Part shown: positions 118-19,909 of the stretch, piece after piece | Numbering within the stretch: the stretch's first letter is position 1 | How the letters are laid out: each line of letters starts with the position of its first letter | Source: a virus | IMG/VR virus record: IMGVR_UViG_3300009163_000158 | Coordinates: 1-25,915 of that record | DNA length: 25,915 bases | Strand: one strand, 5' to 3' | Made by a program: the position numbers and the translations under genes | The notes under the pieces: model-generated | Database searches by the model: none | The model's input: the letters and a program-made list of their open reading frames with translations, nothing else | Told to the model about the DNA's origin: nothing

Positions 118-1776
118 ATGAAAATCCCTATTTCCCTTTACCTAATCGCTGGAAATGAAGAAGCCCACATCAAGCGAGTCATTGAATCTTTTAAGCCCAT
201 CGCAGAAGAAATTATTGTTTGTATGGCTAGGGGGTCAGCTACGCCAGACAAGACAGAAGAGATCGCTCTTTCGCTTGGGGCTAAAGTCATTCATTACAAG
301 AATAAGAAAACTGACTGGCCTCACATAGACGATTTTGCTTCTGCTAGAAACACAGCCCTAGATGCTTGTAAGAACGAGTGGTCTATTTGGGTGGATGCTG
401 ACGATATTATGGCCGAGGGCGGGGAAAAGGTTTTAGAAGAGGGATTGGAGCAAGCAGAAAAAGTGGGGGCTGAAATTGTTTGTTTCCGTTATCTGGTTGA
501 GAACGCCGGATTGAATCCTATTCGAGAGATGGCCTTGCGTAAGGGGTGCGGTAGGTGGAGGAATCGAGTTCACGAAGCCCTTGAGCCAAACGACAGAAAT
601 AAGCTATTGGCGATTGATAAGATATTTAGGATTCACCGCCCAATTACAAGCAAGGCAGATTCGGCAGATAGAAACCATCGAATCCTAGCAGACGAGCTAA
701 CCTCTACCCCATTCAATCTTTATTATCAGCACCAAGAGTTTTTCTTGAGGGGGCAAGTGGATAAGGCGATTGAGGTGGGGGAAAGAGCGTTGGCATTCCC
801 AGACCTAGACGAGACTCTCAAATATGAGCTTCTGTGTAACCTTGGGAGATGCTCACTCGGTGATAAACGATTTAGATATTTAGGGGAGGCGATTGCGATC
901 AATCCTATTCGGAGAGAGGCTTATTTTTATTTGATGGCCGAATACTCCGCAAGAGGCGATTGGCCGAAGGCTTGGCACTCTGGAAGGGCTTGTATGGCGA
1001 TGCCAAGACCACCTTTGCACTATTGGAATCAAGTTCACGCAATCTACGATTGGCAAGCCCTCGATGGATACAGAGTGGCTTCTCTTTGTTACAATCAAAA
1101 AGAAGAGGTTGCCAAGTTGACCAATATGTATCCCAAGCCAAAGATTAGTATTATTCACGCTACAAGGGGTAGGCCAGACTTGGCATTCCAAAGGAAAATT
1201 CAATGGCTTGCCTTGGCTAAAGAGCCACTGGCAGTTGAATGGCTATTTATGGTAGATCACGATGAACAAGTGAATTACACTCCCCACGATGCAAAAAGAG
1301 TTAATCCCGGTGGAATTATCAATGCTTGGAACGAGGGGGCAAAGATGGCAAAAAGCGAGGTTATTGTGCAAATGAGCGATGATTGGAGTCCTCCGAGGCA
1401 CTGGGATGCCCTAATTTTGAGCAGAATCGACAACCTAGAGGCCGAAAGGGTGCTGGCAGTATCAGATGGCCTCCGAACCGACAAACTGCTTTGTATGGCT
1501 ATCCTAACGCAAAAGAGGCTACGGAAGCAGGGGGGGTATATGTTTCACCCAAGCTATCAAGATTCGGACGGCATATACTCCGACAACGAGTTCACAGAAA
1601 GAGCCTATGCCGATGATTGCGTAATTGAGGCTAGGGACTTGGTCTTTAGGCACGAGAATCCTATGTTTGCAGGGGGCAACCCAGACGAGCAGTTAAAGAA
1701 TCACAACAAGCCAGAGTTTTATGAAAAGGGGAAAGCCATATATGAAAAACGCAAAAGCCAAAACTGGCAATCGTAA
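118..1776 (+). CDS. GT2-family glycosyltransferase with two GT-A-like domains
   Basis: A 552-residue protein. The N-terminus starts like a GT-A family 2 enzyme (ISLYLIAGNEE) and carries a metal/nucleotide-binding acidic motif, DADD, at residues 93-96. The middle part (about 190-310) looks like helical TPR-type repeats. From about residue 343 a second GT-A-like segment begins (KISIIHATRGRPDL), with DHDE near 380 and DDW near 421. It would transfer a sugar from a nucleotide sugar; donor and acceptor are unknown. It is the first gene after the terminator and leads the sugar cassette. The start lacks a Shine-Dalgarno sequence, but the reading begins exactly at the conserved first beta strand. The family call is firm; the two-domain reading is inference. 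Confidence 0.85.
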   Translation: MKIPISLYLIAGNEEAHIKRVIESFKPIAEEIIVCMARGSATPDKTEEIALSLGAKVIHYKNKKTDWPHIDDFASARNTALDACKNEWSIWVDADDIMAEGGEKVLEEGLEQAEKVGAEIVCFRYLVENAGLNPIREMALRKGCGRWRNRVHEALEPNDRNKLLAIDKIFRIHRPITSKADSADRNHRILADELTSTPFNLYYQHQEFFLRGQVDKAIEVGERALAFPDLDETLKYELLCNLGRCSLGDKRFRYLGEAIAINPIRREAYFYLMAEYSARGDWPKAWHSGRACMAMPRPPLHYWNQVHAIYDWQALDGYRVASLCYNQKEEVAKLTNMYPKPKISIIHATRGRPDLAFQRKIQWLALAKEPLAVEWLFMVDHDEQVNYTPHDAKRVNPGGIINAWNEGAKMAKSEVIVQMSDDWSPPRHWDALILSRIDNLEAERVLAVSDGLRTDKLLCMAILTQKRLRKQGGYMFHPSYQDSDGIYSDNEFTERAYADDCVIEARDLVFRHENPMFAGGNPDEQLKNHNKPEFYEKGKAIYEKRKSQNWQS

Positions 1777-1966
1777 ATCTGGAATCATTCGCTTTGGCAA
1801 GGCTCGGCCAGTTCCAAAGATGGTTGAGGTGGATGTGAGCTATGATGATAGAGCCGAGAAAGATTTATACAAAGCTGGGATGATTGCGTTGAAGCACGAC
1901 AAAGAGGCAGTAATTGCCTATGTGATTCGCAAGGCTTTAGAAGAGAAATTGAAATGCAAGAAGTAA
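1742..1966 (+). CDS. Small basic protein of unknown function
   Basis: A 74-residue protein overlapping the end of the glycosyltransferase gene. The N-terminus is very rich in lysine and arginine; the C-terminal half reads as helix (VIAYVIRKALEEKLKCKK). It is a little like ribbon-helix-helix proteins in size and in having a strand-like stretch (KMVEVDVSYDDR) followed by helices, but I see no decisive motif. I chose ATG 1742 because a GGGGA stretch lies about 9 bases upstream; ATG 1721 in the same frame would add 7 residues. The next gene overlaps its end. Confidence 0.6.
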   Translation: MKNAKAKTGNRKSGIIRFGKARPVPKMVEVDVSYDDRAEKDLYKAGMIALKHDKEAVIAYVIRKALEEKLKCKK

Positions 1967-2565
1967 CGATTAACGATTCGTTTGGGAAAGCCCTTGCAAA
2001 ATATAGTGAGGGGCTTGATGTTGGCCTAGAGATCGGTGGAGGAACTGGGGATGGCTCAACTCAATGCATTAGGACAAAAAGGCTATTCAGCATTGAGAAC
2101 CACCCAGACCGAATTGGTAGGCATTCAATGAACCTATCTGCAAGAGGCGGCGTTTCGGTTAAGGGAACTGCAACCCTTCCGAAGCTCTGGATGAATCAAC
2201 TAGATGTAGCAGAGTTTTACGGAACAAATAAAACAAATCTCAATCAATATCCCCTAGATCAAGTTCTTGGGTGGTATCACGAATGTATTGAATCTGCCGA
2301 ACCATATAGCACCAATTCAATCGAGGACATTCACTTTGAGCATAAGGTGGATTTTAACTTTGTGTTGATTGATGGCTCGCCTTTTTCTGGTGAGGCCGAA
2401 CTTCGTTGCGTTAGACCATTCCTAGCGGAGAAAGCAATCATCGCCTTGGATGATGTGAACGACATTAAGAACTTGGCGAACTATAACAAGCTCAAGGGAT
2501 TTTCTGAACTGCTCTGGGAGGATTGGTCTGTCCGTAATGGTGCGGCCATATTCCAATTATGTTGA
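1954..2565 (+). CDS. Class I methyltransferase-like protein
   Basis: A 203-residue protein. A glycine-rich loop after a beta strand (LEIGGGTGDGST, about residues 26-37) looks like SAM-binding motif I. Later strands, FVLIDGSPF and IIALDDVND, fit the acidic motifs of the FkbM/Methyltransf_24 type of class I methyltransferase. The length suits a single Rossmann domain. Its place between glycosyltransferase genes suggests modification of a sugar or glycan, but the substrate cannot be read from the sequence. It overlaps the small gene before it by 13 bases and the glycosyltransferase-like gene after it by 7 bases, so these genes are probably translated together. Confidence 0.6.
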   Translation: MQEVTINDSFGKALAKYSEGLDVGLEIGGGTGDGSTQCIRTKRLFSIENHPDRIGRHSMNLSARGGVSVKGTATLPKLWMNQLDVAEFYGTNKTNLNQYPLDQVLGWYHECIESAEPYSTNSIEDIHFEHKVDFNFVLIDGSPFSGEAELRCVRPFLAEKAIIALDDVNDIKNLANYNKLKGFSELLWEDWSVRNGAAIFQLC

Positions 2566-3326
2566 CCATCTTTACCATCGTCCTCAATGGGATGCCTTTT
2601 ATCGAGAGGCATCTTGCAGAGTTTCAAAAGCTCAAGATTCCTTGGAGATGGAGGATTGTCGAGGGGGTAAGTGAGCCAGTTGGATGCACCCGGTGGTGTA
2701 AGCAAGTACCCGACAAATGGCACAAGGATTTTAAGAGCATAGATGGAACGCACGAATATCTTAATAGTATCCAAGGCGGGAATGTTGTTGTTTATTCGCA
2801 GGGCAAGCCCTTTAACGGAAAGCTAGAGATGATTCAGCAAGCCCTATTTGGCGTGGATGATGGGGTCGTTATGGAAGTGGACGCTGACGAGATGTGGCGA
2901 GCAGAACAGATCGAGGAGATTTACGAATGCTTAAAGGGAGCAGAGGATGGGGCAACGATGCAATTCCATTGTAATTTCTTTGTTGGAGAAAATAAGCGAG
3001 TAGTTACTAGAGAGGGTTATGGCTCGAACTGGTATGAATGGATGAGGGCTTGGAAGTGGGGAAAGAATGTGTGCTTCACAAGCCACGAGCCACCCCGCCT
3101 AAGCATCCAGTCTCGCCTAGTTCCAAGGGGAGTGACTGAAACTTGGGGGCTGGTATTCAATCACTATGCCTATGCCATCGAAAAACAAGTTGAGTTTAAG
3201 GAGGATTTTTATGGCTACAAGGGATTGGTGGATGGATGGAAGGAATTGCAAAAGACTATCGGCCCAGTTCGATTGAGCGAATACTTCCCTCACCTACACG
3301 ACAAGAGCGTAGCCGATGACTGCTAA
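2559..3326 (+). CDS. GT-A-like glycosyltransferase
   Basis: A 255-residue protein. It begins with a beta strand typical of GT2-like folds (MLTIFTIVLNGMPFIERHL). The segment VVMEVDADEMW places a DxD-type motif at residues 108-110 at the end of a strand, where such enzymes bind the metal and nucleotide sugar. The C-terminal half is rich in tryptophan and aromatic residues. I infer a glycosyltransferase, perhaps divergent. The start overlaps the end of the methyltransferase-like gene and its own end overlaps the GT9-like gene by 11 bases, tying it to the sugar cassette. Confidence 0.65.
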   Translation: MLTIFTIVLNGMPFIERHLAEFQKLKIPWRWRIVEGVSEPVGCTRWCKQVPDKWHKDFKSIDGTHEYLNSIQGGNVVVYSQGKPFNGKLEMIQQALFGVDDGVVMEVDADEMWRAEQIEEIYECLKGAEDGATMQFHCNFFVGENKRVVTREGYGSNWYEWMRAWKWGKNVCFTSHEPPRLSIQSRLVPRGVTETWGLVFNHYAYAIEKQVEFKEDFYGYKGLVDGWKELQKTIGPVRLSEYFPHLHDKSVADDC

Positions 3327-3987
3327 AACAATCAAATACTCCCAGAGGCTAGGAGACATCATTCGTTGCCTACCAGCTTGCAAATATCTGGCCGACCAAG
3401 GCCACGAGGTATTCTTTGATTGCCTACCCCAATATCACGGCATCTTCGAGATGGTTTCCTATGTGAAGGTTGGCAATAAGGGCGATGTTATAGACCTTGA
3501 GATTTGGCCTAACAAATACCAACAATATCGTTTCTCAAATAAGACTTGGACAGAGTTTGTCTATGCTCACCCAGACATTAACAAGGCAGACCCAAAGGAT
3601 ATTCTGTTCGACAAGTTAGACGATGCCCCAGCCAAAGGATTCCCAGAAACCTATAATATGGTTGCCCCCTTCGGGATAAGCCAAGGGCATAAGAGAGACC
3701 CCCTGCAAATCATAGTTGAGGCAAGGAAGAAGTGCGGTGGGGATAATTTCTTTGTCCTATGCCAAGAGGGTACGGAGATTAAGGGATTGCAAACCTACAC
3801 AGCCCCAAGCATCCTAGAATTGGCTAGGGCAATAAGAGGGGCTAATGAGTTTTGGTCAATAGATAGTGGGCAAATGGCAATAGCGGCTGGGGTTAGGAAA
3901 GAAAGTAAGGTTGTGTATTTCCCGCAAACAATCGAGCCATTTGATAAGGACAATATCTTTATCTGGGACAGCGTAGAGATAAATTGA
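3316..3987 (+). CDS. GT9-like (heptosyltransferase-type) glycosyltransferase
   Basis: A 223-residue protein, shorter than usual GT9 enzymes (about 320-350). The N-terminus has the GT9-like pattern of a GDIIRCLPACKYLADQGHEV stretch (residues 13-32), in which a glycine-aspartate loop is followed by a helix and a second strand. The C-terminus has FWSIDSGQMAIAAGV (179-193), which resembles the GT9 donor-site motif (D-S-G/M-H-x-A-A-A). GT9 enzymes of Gram-negative bacteria add heptose or related sugars to lipopolysaccharide core. The middle is shortened, so it may be a reduced or divergent member. It ends the sugar cassette; the stop codon lies inside the TTGACA box at 3984. Confidence 0.7.
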   Translation: MTAKTIKYSQRLGDIIRCLPACKYLADQGHEVFFDCLPQYHGIFEMVSYVKVGNKGDVIDLEIWPNKYQQYRFSNKTWTEFVYAHPDINKADPKDILFDKLDDAPAKGFPETYNMVAPFGISQGHKRDPLQIIVEARKKCGGDNFFVLCQEGTEIKGLQTYTAPSILELARAIRGANEFWSIDSGQMAIAAGVRKESKVVYFPQTIEPFDKDNIFIWDSVEIN

Positions 3988-7329: not shown

Positions 7330-7686
7330 ATGGCCGCTACAAGTATTGGACTTTCCTCCGTTGCCTTCGGACTCGCCGCTGAAACTGGCGTTGTTATTCA
7401 GAGCTTTTCTCTTACAAGCACAGCCGAGACAACCGAAGTATCAAAGCACAATGGAACTCACTCTGCTGTTGCGTTTTCTGCTTTTAAAAGGAATGTCAGT
7501 CTTTCTGGTAATTGTAGTGGTGCAGTTGCCTCTTCTGGAATTGGTGGGACTCTTGCCCTAACCAGCAACACAACCGCAGTATCTAGCGGAACTTACTTTG
7601 TGACTGATGTTTCTTTCTCACAAGCCGCCGATGGCTTTAACAGCTTTGACCTATCTGCAACCGCATACGATGGATTAAATACATAA
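7330..7686 (+). CDS. Major tail (tube) protein-like, copy 1
   Basis: A 118-residue beta-rich protein that is paralogous to the next gene. Both begin MAAT-I-G, both have GVVIQS or GMVIQS early, and both end with an ADGF/ADNF...F-A-YDG pattern. Phage tail tube proteins are small beta-sandwich proteins encoded before the tail assembly chaperones and the tape measure gene, which is exactly this position. The function is inferred from position, size and composition; I see no family-specific motif. Confidence 0.55.
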   Translation: MAATSIGLSSVAFGLAAETGVVIQSFSLTSTAETTEVSKHNGTHSAVAFSAFKRNVSLSGNCSGAVASSGIGGTLALTSNTTAVSSGTYFVTDVSFSQAADGFNSFDLSATAYDGLNT

Positions 7687-7687
7687 T

Positions 7688-8041
7688 ATGGCCGCCACAA
7701 TCATCGGGAATAGCACAGACCTAGCCTTCGGGATTGCCTCTGCACAGACTGGGATGGTAATTCAATCCATCTCTTCCTCTGCCTCTGCTGATGCGGTTGA
7801 GCTAAAGAATAAGGGTGGCGATGTTACGGCAGTTGTGTTCCGCAATAAGAAAGTCACCTACTCAGTAGAGGGTGCATATACAACCTTTAGCGGTAGCGTT
7901 GGGGCAACCATCACAGTATCCAACGGAAGCAACTACGACCTATCTGGTGCGGCCTATATTACCGAAACCGCTAGAAATCGTAGTGCAGATAACTTTGAGA
8001 CTGTATCCTTTACGGCAGTTCGATACGATGGTATAAGTTAG
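7688..8041 (+). CDS. Major tail (tube) protein-like, copy 2
   Basis: A 117-residue paralogue of the preceding gene, separated from its stop by 1 base. Shared features are the N-terminal MAATIIG, the TGMVIQSISSSASAD block against TGVVIQSFSLTSTAE, and the end SADNFETVSFTAVRYDG against AADGFNSFDLSATAYDG. Either both build one mixed tube, or one is the tube and the other a decoration or tip protein. The call is inference from gene order. Confidence 0.55.
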   Translation: MAATIIGNSTDLAFGIASAQTGMVIQSISSSASADAVELKNKGGDVTAVVFRNKKVTYSVEGAYTTFSGSVGATITVSNGSNYDLSGAAYITETARNRSADNFETVSFTAVRYDGIS

Positions 8042-8060: not shown

Positions 8061-8447
8061 ATGCAAGAAAAAATCCTTTATACTCGCAACATCAAACTAG
8101 CCTCTGTTCTTGCCACTTTTGGCATTCCCTTTAGAGAGAAAGAGCCAATGGCTGTCATTGAGGATGCAGACGATAACAACCGCAGAAGCGTCACATTCTT
8201 CTTTAGCGACCTACCTAGTGGTCTGGGGGGCAAGATAGTTGATATATGGGAAAAGGGCTGGTCAGCTATCACGAACTATGATGACCCCATAGCCTATTGC
8301 AGAGCCGTACTAGAGAACAGAGAGCGTCTTTTGGACGCTATGAACAACGCAACCCCCCTAGTCAAAAAGCAGTTTGGGAAAGCTACCTTGCTGGTTAGCA
8401 AGAACGCATCCCCAGAACTACGAAAGAAATTGAGCAAATACCTATGA
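8061..8447 (+). CDS. Hypothetical protein between tail tube and chaperone genes
   Basis: A 128-residue soluble, charged protein with no motif I recognise. It lies between the tail tube-like genes and the frameshifted chaperone, and the chaperone start overlaps its stop (ATGA at 8444). Its leader carries CTAGAAATCCT (8049-8059), the same 11 bases found before the gene at 118, and no Shine-Dalgarno sequence. A tail-assembly role is plausible from position alone. Confidence 0.5.
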   Translation: MQEKILYTRNIKLASVLATFGIPFREKEPMAVIEDADDNNRRSVTFFFSDLPSGLGGKIVDIWEKGWSAITNYDDPIAYCRAVLENRERLLDAMNNATPLVKKQFGKATLLVSKNASPELRKKLSKYL

Positions 8448-8824
8448 ACCTAGACCTACAAAAAGATGAGGAGATTCTAAACAAGGCACTCGATAAATCC
8501 TTTGTCATAAACGAGAGAATGTTTAAGGGCAATAAGGTTGGTAAGTTCACCCTTGGCACACGAATTGTTATGAACCAGATTCGTGAGGAGGCAGATACCA
8601 CAGAGTTTTTTATTTGGTCTAGCTTATATTGCCTAACTCATCCAAGGTCGGAGTTAGTGAAGTTAGCTTGGGACAAGGCCAAGTTTAGAGAGGCGGTTCT
8701 GAATTGGTCTGATGAGTTTAATGAGGCTGATTTTATTGAAGGGGTAAAGATTGTTGATGAAATATTTTCTGAAATTGCAGAGGCTCGTGTTCAGACTAAT
8801 GGAGGGAACGACTCCCCAAAATAG
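8444..8824 (+). CDS. Tail assembly chaperone, short form (gpG-like)
   Basis: A 126-residue mostly helical, acidic protein ending at TAG 8822-8824. The stop directly follows a slippery heptamer (C CCA AAA, 8815-8821). In lambda-like and many other long-tailed phages the gene just before the tape measure makes two products, a short form (G) and a frameshifted long form (GT), that hold the tape measure protein during tail assembly. Size, place and the frameshift signal all fit. The sequence itself shows no lambda G similarity by eye. Confidence 0.75.
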   Translation: MNLDLQKDEEILNKALDKSFVINERMFKGNKVGKFTLGTRIVMNQIREEADTTEFFIWSSLYCLTHPRSELVKLAWDKAKFREAVLNWSDEFNEADFIEGVKIVDEIFSEIAEARVQTNGGNDSPK

Positions 8825-9024
8825 TACAGCCAGCCGGGATTGCTTCGTCCGTCTGGCTATTTGCAAAGGAGTTCGGGTGGACAGCAGAGCAAGTATTGTG
8901 GGAGATGGCCGAGGTGCAACTTGTTCAGCTAGAACACGCTATGCTTGTCAATCGTGGAATTGATGTCAGAAGGCACAACTCTAACGCAGTAAATATAATT
9001 GATGATATTCTTGACGATAGATAA
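8444..9024 (+). CDS. Tail assembly chaperone, -1 frameshifted long form (gpGT-like)
   Basis: Predicted 193-residue fusion. Ribosomes reading CCA AAA at 8816-8821 slip back one base to CCC AAA and continue at ATA 8821. The -1 frame is closed upstream by TAA at 8797-8799 and stays open from 8800 to TAA at 9022-9024, adding 67 residues. The added part has a protein-like helical sequence (SVWLFAKEFGWTAEQVLWEM) of the kind seen in T domains of tail chaperones (F-A-x-E-F-G-W-x-x-x-x-V/I-L). It has no plausible start of its own covering this region. It ends 8 bases before the next gene. Confidence 0.85.
8815..8858 (+). promoter_or_regulatory. Programmed -1 ribosomal frameshift signal
   Basis: The heptamer CCCAAAA at 8815-8821 fits the X XXY YYZ rule in the zero frame and is followed at once by the TAG stop. 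A 6-base spacer (8822-8827) leads to a hairpin: AGCCAG (8828-8833) pairs with CTGGCT (8853-8858), then after one C-T mismatch CGGG (8835-8838) pairs with TCCG (8848-8851, one G-T pair), closing a 9-base loop. Spacer length and hairpin placement are what known -1 sites use. Confidence 0.85.
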
Positions 9025-9734: not shown

Positions 9735-11027
9735 ATGAGCTTCAAGCTAGTCGGAGAGGTAGTAATTGACGGACGCAAGGGAACAACTGCGTTAAAAGAC
9801 CTTCAGAGGGAGGCCAACAAGACATCAGACACATTCCGTAGGGCTGGTGGAAATACAGAGCGATTGGGCAAAAGCCTTCTTTCCCTTGGGCTTAATGCTG
9901 GCAGGGCTGGCACATCTCTAGGTGCGTTGAGCAGACTTGGTGCTGGTGGATTGTTTGGGGCGGCTGTCCTTGGCTCAATCAATAAGTTTGGAGAAACTGT
10001 TAAGCAAGCCTCAACAGACTATTATCAATCCCAGAAAGCCTTGTCAGATGCCTTTGAAATGTCGTTTAAGAGTACGAGCGTTGAGCAAGCACAAGCTGGA
10101 TTAGAAAAGACAGAGGACACGATTGAATCTTTGCGTGGCAAGATTACTCAGCTTGGTGCTTTTGGTGGGATATTAAAAGGAATCGAAAAATTTTCGGGAA
10201 TCAATCTTGGTGTAGGAGATACTGAAAAAGCCCTAGAAACCGCAAGAGCAAATCTAACCGTACTTGAAAGCACGGTTGAAGCCAGAAAGAAGGAATCAGA
10301 TGCGGCCAAAATTCTTGAAGGAGAATTAAACTCCCTAGAACTTGCCAACAAAATGAATGCTATTGATATTAAAAATCAAGCATTAAAAGGAGATATTTTA
10401 GACGAAAACGCATCTATTGCTTTTAACGAACTGCAAACAGTTGAGCTTGAAATTTCAGCACAAAAAGAACTATTAAAAACACTTGAATCAATAACTGGTG
10501 TTAAAAAAAACCAAGAGGCTATTGATAAGAGTCTCGCTTATTTGGCAGACGCAAGAGTTCGCAAGGCTCAAGCAGAATATAATCTGGCAAAAGCAAATAA
10601 CGATGCGAATGCAAAACGCTCTAAACAAGCACAAGAGGCTGGCGGTGGTCTATTGGGTGCAAGCAGGGCTGGGCAACAAGCCCTTGATACAGCAAGGAAA
10701 GTAAGGGCAAGGGAAGTAAATAAGGAAGATTTCAGAACACAAGACCAAGTATTTGAAAAGATGAAAACAGAGGAAAATGTTAAGAGAAAGGCACAAGGAT
10801 TACCACCAGTAACAGCTCAAAGTATGCGGGAAAAAGTAGCCGCACAACAAGCCGCAGGAGAGATGCCATTACTATCTGAAAAACTCGGGGCTATGCAAAC
10901 TGGGACACCAGCAAGTCAAGTTGCCGCAGAAAAAGCCAAGGGTGGGGGTGGGGCAGATATGCAAAAATCATTATTAGACGCAATATCAGAACTCAATAAA
11001 AAGTTACCGGCCGCAGTAGCTCAATAA
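9735..11027 (+). CDS. Tail tape measure protein (short)
   Basis: A 430-residue protein rich in alanine, lysine and glutamate, with long helical stretches and a glycine/alanine-rich hydrophobic patch near residues 47-85 (LLSLGLNAGRAGTSLGALSR and following). The N-terminus (FKLVGEVVIDGRKGTTALK) is typical of phage tape measure proteins, which often begin with a short beta part before a coiled region. It follows the frameshifted chaperone, the usual order. Tape measure length sets tail length; at about 0.15 nm per residue this predicts a tail near 65 nm, short for a siphovirus. No lytic domain is visible. Confidence 0.8.
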   Translation: MSFKLVGEVVIDGRKGTTALKDLQREANKTSDTFRRAGGNTERLGKSLLSLGLNAGRAGTSLGALSRLGAGGLFGAAVLGSINKFGETVKQASTDYYQSQKALSDAFEMSFKSTSVEQAQAGLEKTEDTIESLRGKITQLGAFGGILKGIEKFSGINLGVGDTEKALETARANLTVLESTVEARKKESDAAKILEGELNSLELANKMNAIDIKNQALKGDILDENASIAFNELQTVELEISAQKELLKTLESITGVKKNQEAIDKSLAYLADARVRKAQAEYNLAKANNDANAKRSKQAQEAGGGLLGASRAGQQALDTARKVRAREVNKEDFRTQDQVFEKMKTEENVKRKAQGLPPVTAQSMREKVAAQQAAGEMPLLSEKLGAMQTGTPASQVAAEKAKGGGGADMQKSLLDAISELNKKLPAAVAQ

Positions 11028-19588: not shown

Positions 19589-19909
19589 ATGAAGCTCACA
19601 CCATCTGCCAAGTTTGAGATTCTATGGAAGAGTCTTGGTGGGTGGGGGCTACTTAAAGAATACAAGTTTGCTGATAGTAGAAGATTTAGATTCGACTATT
19701 ACCACATCGAGGGCGTAGCAGTAGAATTGGAAGGGGGAATTTGGGTGCGTGGCCGCCATACGAATCCATCCGGGTTCTTAAACGATATGGAGAAATACAA
19801 TCTCGCCGCCTCTATGGGCATCCTAGTTTTTCGTGTTCCCTCCCACGACATCAGTACCAAGTGGCTTTCCCCGATAATTAAAACCATAAACGAAAGGACA
19901 AAAAAATGA
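19589..19909 (+). CDS. PD-(D/E)xK-type nuclease
   Basis: A 106-residue protein matching small phage endonucleases of the VRR-NUC/restriction-like type. The core is FRFDYYHIEGVAVELEGG (34-50), with D36 at the end of one strand and E46-L-E48 on the next, the expected metal-binding pattern with the usual lysine replaced by E48. RGRH-x-x-x-x-GF-x-x-D-x-EKYN follows, then a strand-helix end (GILVFRVPSHD). Such enzymes act as Holliday junction resolvases or other structure-specific nucleases. It lies with the ligase-like and annealing-like genes. Confidence 0.75.
   Translation: MKLTPSAKFEILWKSLGGWGLLKEYKFADSRRFRFDYYHIEGVAVELEGGIWVRGRHTNPSGFLNDMEKYNLAASMGILVFRVPSHDISTKWLSPIIKTINERTKK

Follow-up and report, generated by a model that had tools for sequence, protein, structure and literature searches.

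The question raised by this locus is whether a short gene and the open frame that overlaps its 3′ end in the −1 register yield two proteins from a single start. The window, that is the whole stretch of DNA analysed, comprises 25,915 nt of an uncultured virus (IMGVR_UViG_3300009163_000158, positions 1 to 25,915), and the parts of the frameshift locus, the tube gene at 7688–8041 and the probable tape-measure gene lie on its + strand. The zero-frame gene, a putative gpG-like tail-assembly chaperone of 126 aa (8444–8824), ends in GAC TCC CCA AAA TAG. The −1 frame is open at 8800–9021, bounded by TAA at 8797–8799 and TAA at 9022–9024. A preliminary description of this DNA had proposed a −1 frameshift in a gpG/gpGT-type chaperone gene. 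Its coordinates for the zero frame, heptamer, TAG, −1 frame and hairpin match base for base, and its main reading is supported by conservation among relatives. On sequence evidence, it is very probable that two proteins are made from one start by −1 programmed frameshifting at C CCA AAA, in the manner of the lambda gpG/gpGT tail chaperone.

The slippery heptamer C CCA AAA (8815–8821) is a real signal with near certainty. A search of viral contigs yielded 31 relatives holding the full junction, with zero-frame proteins 58–99 % identical to that of the window; CCCAAAA is present with unchanged register in the window and all 31 of these (32/32). The residue preceding Pro (codon 125) is Ser, Pro, Asp or Asn depending on the sequence, and the third base of its codon is C in every case. 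Codons 125–127 show zero synonymous changes against ~290 pair differences expected, and the heptamer would survive a fresh draw of these three codons with a probability of ~0.06–0.11 per lineage, given the codon usage of this genome. In the fused frame, the synonymous change ratio stays near 1.1 for most of the zero frame and falls to 0.03 in its last four codons; the lowest synonymous variability of the fused ORF is found at the heptamer and hairpin. This comparison of relatives is strong evidence for reading the signal as a conserved −1 programmed frameshift.

A slip at the heptamer would give a 193-aa fusion with the junction S-P-K-I-V-Q-P, in which a T-like extension (8818–9024) runs 67 residues past the shared Lys. 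The −1 frame is stop-free in all relatives, and both other frames are interrupted in every sequence. Extension dN is 0.03–0.37 against a dS of 0.2 to saturation, which indicates purifying selection. When the zero-frame protein and the extension were used as separate queries, the same contigs were returned, barring one truncated contig. Neither a broken extension frame nor a lost heptamer, two of the findings named in advance as counting against a frameshift, is seen in any relative (0/31).

Three other accounts of the overlap were weighed. A separate small gene for the extension, with its own start or re-initiation after the TAG, is very unlikely. Overlapping coupled starts are frequent in the window (ATGA at 8444 and 19906), and the extension, which has no ATG, GTG or TTG before codon 27, does offer TTG and ATG at codons 27 and 30. 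However, no start codon is conserved: the extension of L061 lacks any ATG, GTG or TTG and thus cannot start alone, and in L056 and L058 the first such codon does not occur before codon 43. L061 alone comes close to refuting this account. Additionally, conservation sets in at the heptamer, ahead of every possible start, and a separate gene would leave the invariant heptamer unexplained.

Single-base indels in homopolymers are a frequent assembly error, and one gene could in this way appear split, or be a pseudogene. The likelihood of this is virtually nil, and the account is refuted: 32 separate contigs, with DNA identities as low as ~60 %, share the junction, purifying selection acts on both frames, and the stop varies between TAG and TAA. 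Transcriptional slippage and stop-codon read-through are both known recoding routes to a longer product, but either is extremely improbable here. The site holds only four A residues, whereas usually about eight or more are needed (An with n > 7; PMC3711429), and read-through of the TAG enters the zero frame rather than the conserved one. Frameshifting at the heptamer is the reading retained below. Among the genes of the window there are 37 in-frame X XXY YYZ sites, and at only 2 of them does a stop follow directly while a long −1 frame continues beyond it. One is C CCA AAA; the other, A AAA AAA TGA at 19900 (19893–19909), is a chance occurrence, as its −1 frame is the next gene with an ATGA start, and the heptamer is lost in 3 of 6 relatives (L133, L135 and L137).

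Downstream of the heptamer, a candidate stimulatory hairpin (8828–8858) was identified by folding and conservation. It begins 6 nt past the heptamer and pairs 8828–8833 with 8853–8858 (6 bp) and 8835–8838 with 8848–8851 (4 bp), separated by a C-U mismatch and closed by a 9-nt loop (8839–8847), with a minimum free energy of −13.4 to −13.9 kcal/mol. Every clade has a predicted hairpin (−13 to −16 kcal/mol), spaced 4–7 nt from the heptamer. Across extension codons 2–14, which cover the hairpin region, synonymous change is 0.41 of that expected. Extension codon 11 encodes Ser, Thr or Leu depending on the sequence, with the stem-pairing C invariant, and the Val/Ile codon after it is GTC or ATC in all cases. 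Paired changes in relatives had been suggested as a check; the stem is kept, and in L055 and L061 one C-G pair has become U-A through changes on both sides. Such counts are small, and stem covariation is not above column shuffles (101/500 on the covariation score). In shuffle tests the 34-nt hairpin element was modestly stable (z −2.06), and a 59-nt segment was no better than its shuffles (z +0.22). Synonymous recoding of single sequences gave equally stable hairpins in 1–25 % of cases. The hairpin is therefore likely, with conservation as its support.

Upstream lies a feature absent from the preliminary description, a Shine-Dalgarno-like GGAGGG (8801–8806) located 8 nt before the heptamer, which could act as a 5′ stimulator. 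Its predicted pairing with the anti-Shine-Dalgarno sequence is −9.8 kcal/mol; pairing is strong in 18 of the 20 sequences checked and weak in L060 and L061. The strength does not exceed the effect of the Gly-Gly codons. Because synonymous recoding gives similar strength and two relatives pair weakly, GGAGGG stays a candidate only.

The zero-frame stop, TAG at 8822–8824, is contiguous with the heptamer in 29 of the 32 sequences; the clade L056–L058 has CAA TAA in its place, which puts the stop one codon later. The Ile of the extension that overlaps the stop is always encoded by ATA, with 0 synonymous differences against 96 expected, and ATA is what preserves TAG in the zero frame. Selection for a prompt end of the short product is thus plausible. 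There is no support for the suggestion that the adjacent stop makes slipping more frequent, as the stop sits one codon on in L056–L058 and published reporter tests point the opposite way: both in mammalian cells and in a bacterial system, −1 frameshifting fell when a stop immediately followed the slippery site, and extra release factor reduced it further (PMC4373837). That the abutting stop is itself a working part, with release factor 1 termination competing with −1 slipping, seems unlikely. In that case, the balance between short and long chaperone would track the termination state of the host, tying tail assembly to host termination.

The identity of the gene was approached through database searches and its surroundings. 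The zero-frame protein is predicted to be mostly helical (pLDDT 77), and the sole match to the model is one uncharacterised viral protein. No match was found in Pfam or PHROGs, nor in the PDB by sequence or by the fold of the model; likewise, no relative was found among 50,697 phage records or in ~85,000 prokaryote genomes. The extension has no match in Pfam or PHROGs. The G/T ORFs of different phages share little sequence (PMC5009743), and the missing family match is for that reason neither defining nor decisive. As Pfam, PHROGs and the PDB give no match, the name ‘chaperone’ is drawn from gene order and from analogy, and the claim is limited to gpG/gpGT-like working in the same position.

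Upstream of the gene, a probable tail tube protein (7688–8041) gives a beta-rich model of low confidence (pLDDT 61), the best Foldseek matches of which are tail-tube and baseplate-tube proteins; it has no match in Pfam or PHROGs. It is the second of two tandem tail-tube-like paralogues (7330–7686 and 7688–8041), ~35 % identical and paired in all relatives examined, one of which might serve as a minor tube protein or as a tip form. Between tube and chaperone, 8061–8447 encodes a 128-aa protein to which no family was assigned; it is 75–97 % identical across clades and more conserved than the chaperone. Downstream, a 430-aa gene (9735–11027) probably encodes the tape-measure protein, judging by its position, as recognised tape-measure genes are likewise placed in L128 and L130; no direct match was found for its product, which is too diverged. 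A 233-aa gene separates the extension from this gene, and L130 has a similarly placed gene. At the left end of the window (118–3987), a family 2 glycosyltransferase (118–1776) and further genes lie beside the tail genes.

Searches with the tube reach the distant phages L128–L130, and the tube at 7688–8041 is related to that of L130. Their gene order is tube, one other gene, a small gene extended in the −1 frame, and tape measure, the tape-measure proteins of L128 and L130 being identified by PHROGs. The −1 overlap of L128 and L129 has the site G GGA AAG with the stop 9 nt on, and that of L130 the site GGGAAAAAAG with the stop 36–39 nt on. In their zero-frame proteins, L128 and L130 have diverged too far for a match to the chaperone of the window; the extension of L128 is related to that of the window (hhalign probability 94 %).

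Sequence and conservation show the site, the hairpin, the gene order and selection on both frames; that slipping occurs, how often, and what each of the two products does are inferred. The majority of ribosomes would translate 8444–8821 and terminate at the TAG, giving the 126-aa gpG-like chaperone. A minority would move back one base at C CCA AAA, tRNA-Pro exchanging CCA for CCC and tRNA-Lys one AAA for another; the hairpin that begins 6 nt past the heptamer would aid the slip, and GGAGGG upstream may do so too. Slipped ribosomes would continue to the TAA at 9022 and complete the gpGT-like fusion of 193 aa. If the products act as in lambda, the shared portion would coat the tape-measure protein and the −1 extension would recruit the tail tube subunit.

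The mechanism is an ordinary one, as frameshifting in tail chaperones is of a known kind; the phage family is new. The locus adds a family, with no annotated phage match at the sensitivity used, to those in which frameshifting sets the ratio of two chaperones, and the otherwise unannotated tail module becomes nameable through its chaperone gene. Only two points are uncommon: how close the stop lies, and C CCA AAA as the slip site. A literature search that did not extend to the slip sites tabulated by Xu et al. 2004 returned no report of CCCAAAA in this role in phage tails. Together with the distant phages there is a natural series of slip sites (G GGA AAG, GGGAAAAAAG and C CCA AAA), with the stop ranging from 36–39 nt to 0 nt, which could be useful for learning how the chaperone ratio depends on the position of the stop and the identity of the site.

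In lambda, gpG/gpGT frameshifting is ~30:1, with the tape measure as the binding partner of G and the tube as that of T (PMC5009743). The locus resembles that system in having a short gene between the tail-tube and tape-measure genes (the latter, in the window, assigned by position), a −1 overlap, a site of the X XXY YYZ type, and a C-terminal extension under coding selection with no start of its own. The lambda site, G GGA AAG, is also used by L128 and L129. Unlike lambda, the window has C CCA AAA as its site, a zero-frame stop abutting it, a conserved downstream hairpin and an additional gene (233 aa) ahead of the probable tape-measure gene, with no detectable match to known G/T proteins. 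The gene type is shared with the frameshifted tail-assembly chaperones of actinobacteriophages (SEA-PHAGES), and the −1 direction with most of them (PMC10885494). The distance from slip site to zero-frame stop, 0 nt here and 3 nt in L056–L058, compares with a mean of 26 nt in those actinobacteriophages and of 36 nt in the set of Xu et al. (PMC10885494). Some eukaryotic RNA viruses also have a stop right after the slippery site; the placement alone is alike, and the gene products and stimulators differ. Finally, as in −1 programmed frameshift signals with a downstream stimulator, a conserved stem-loop is present here a few nucleotides past the heptamer.
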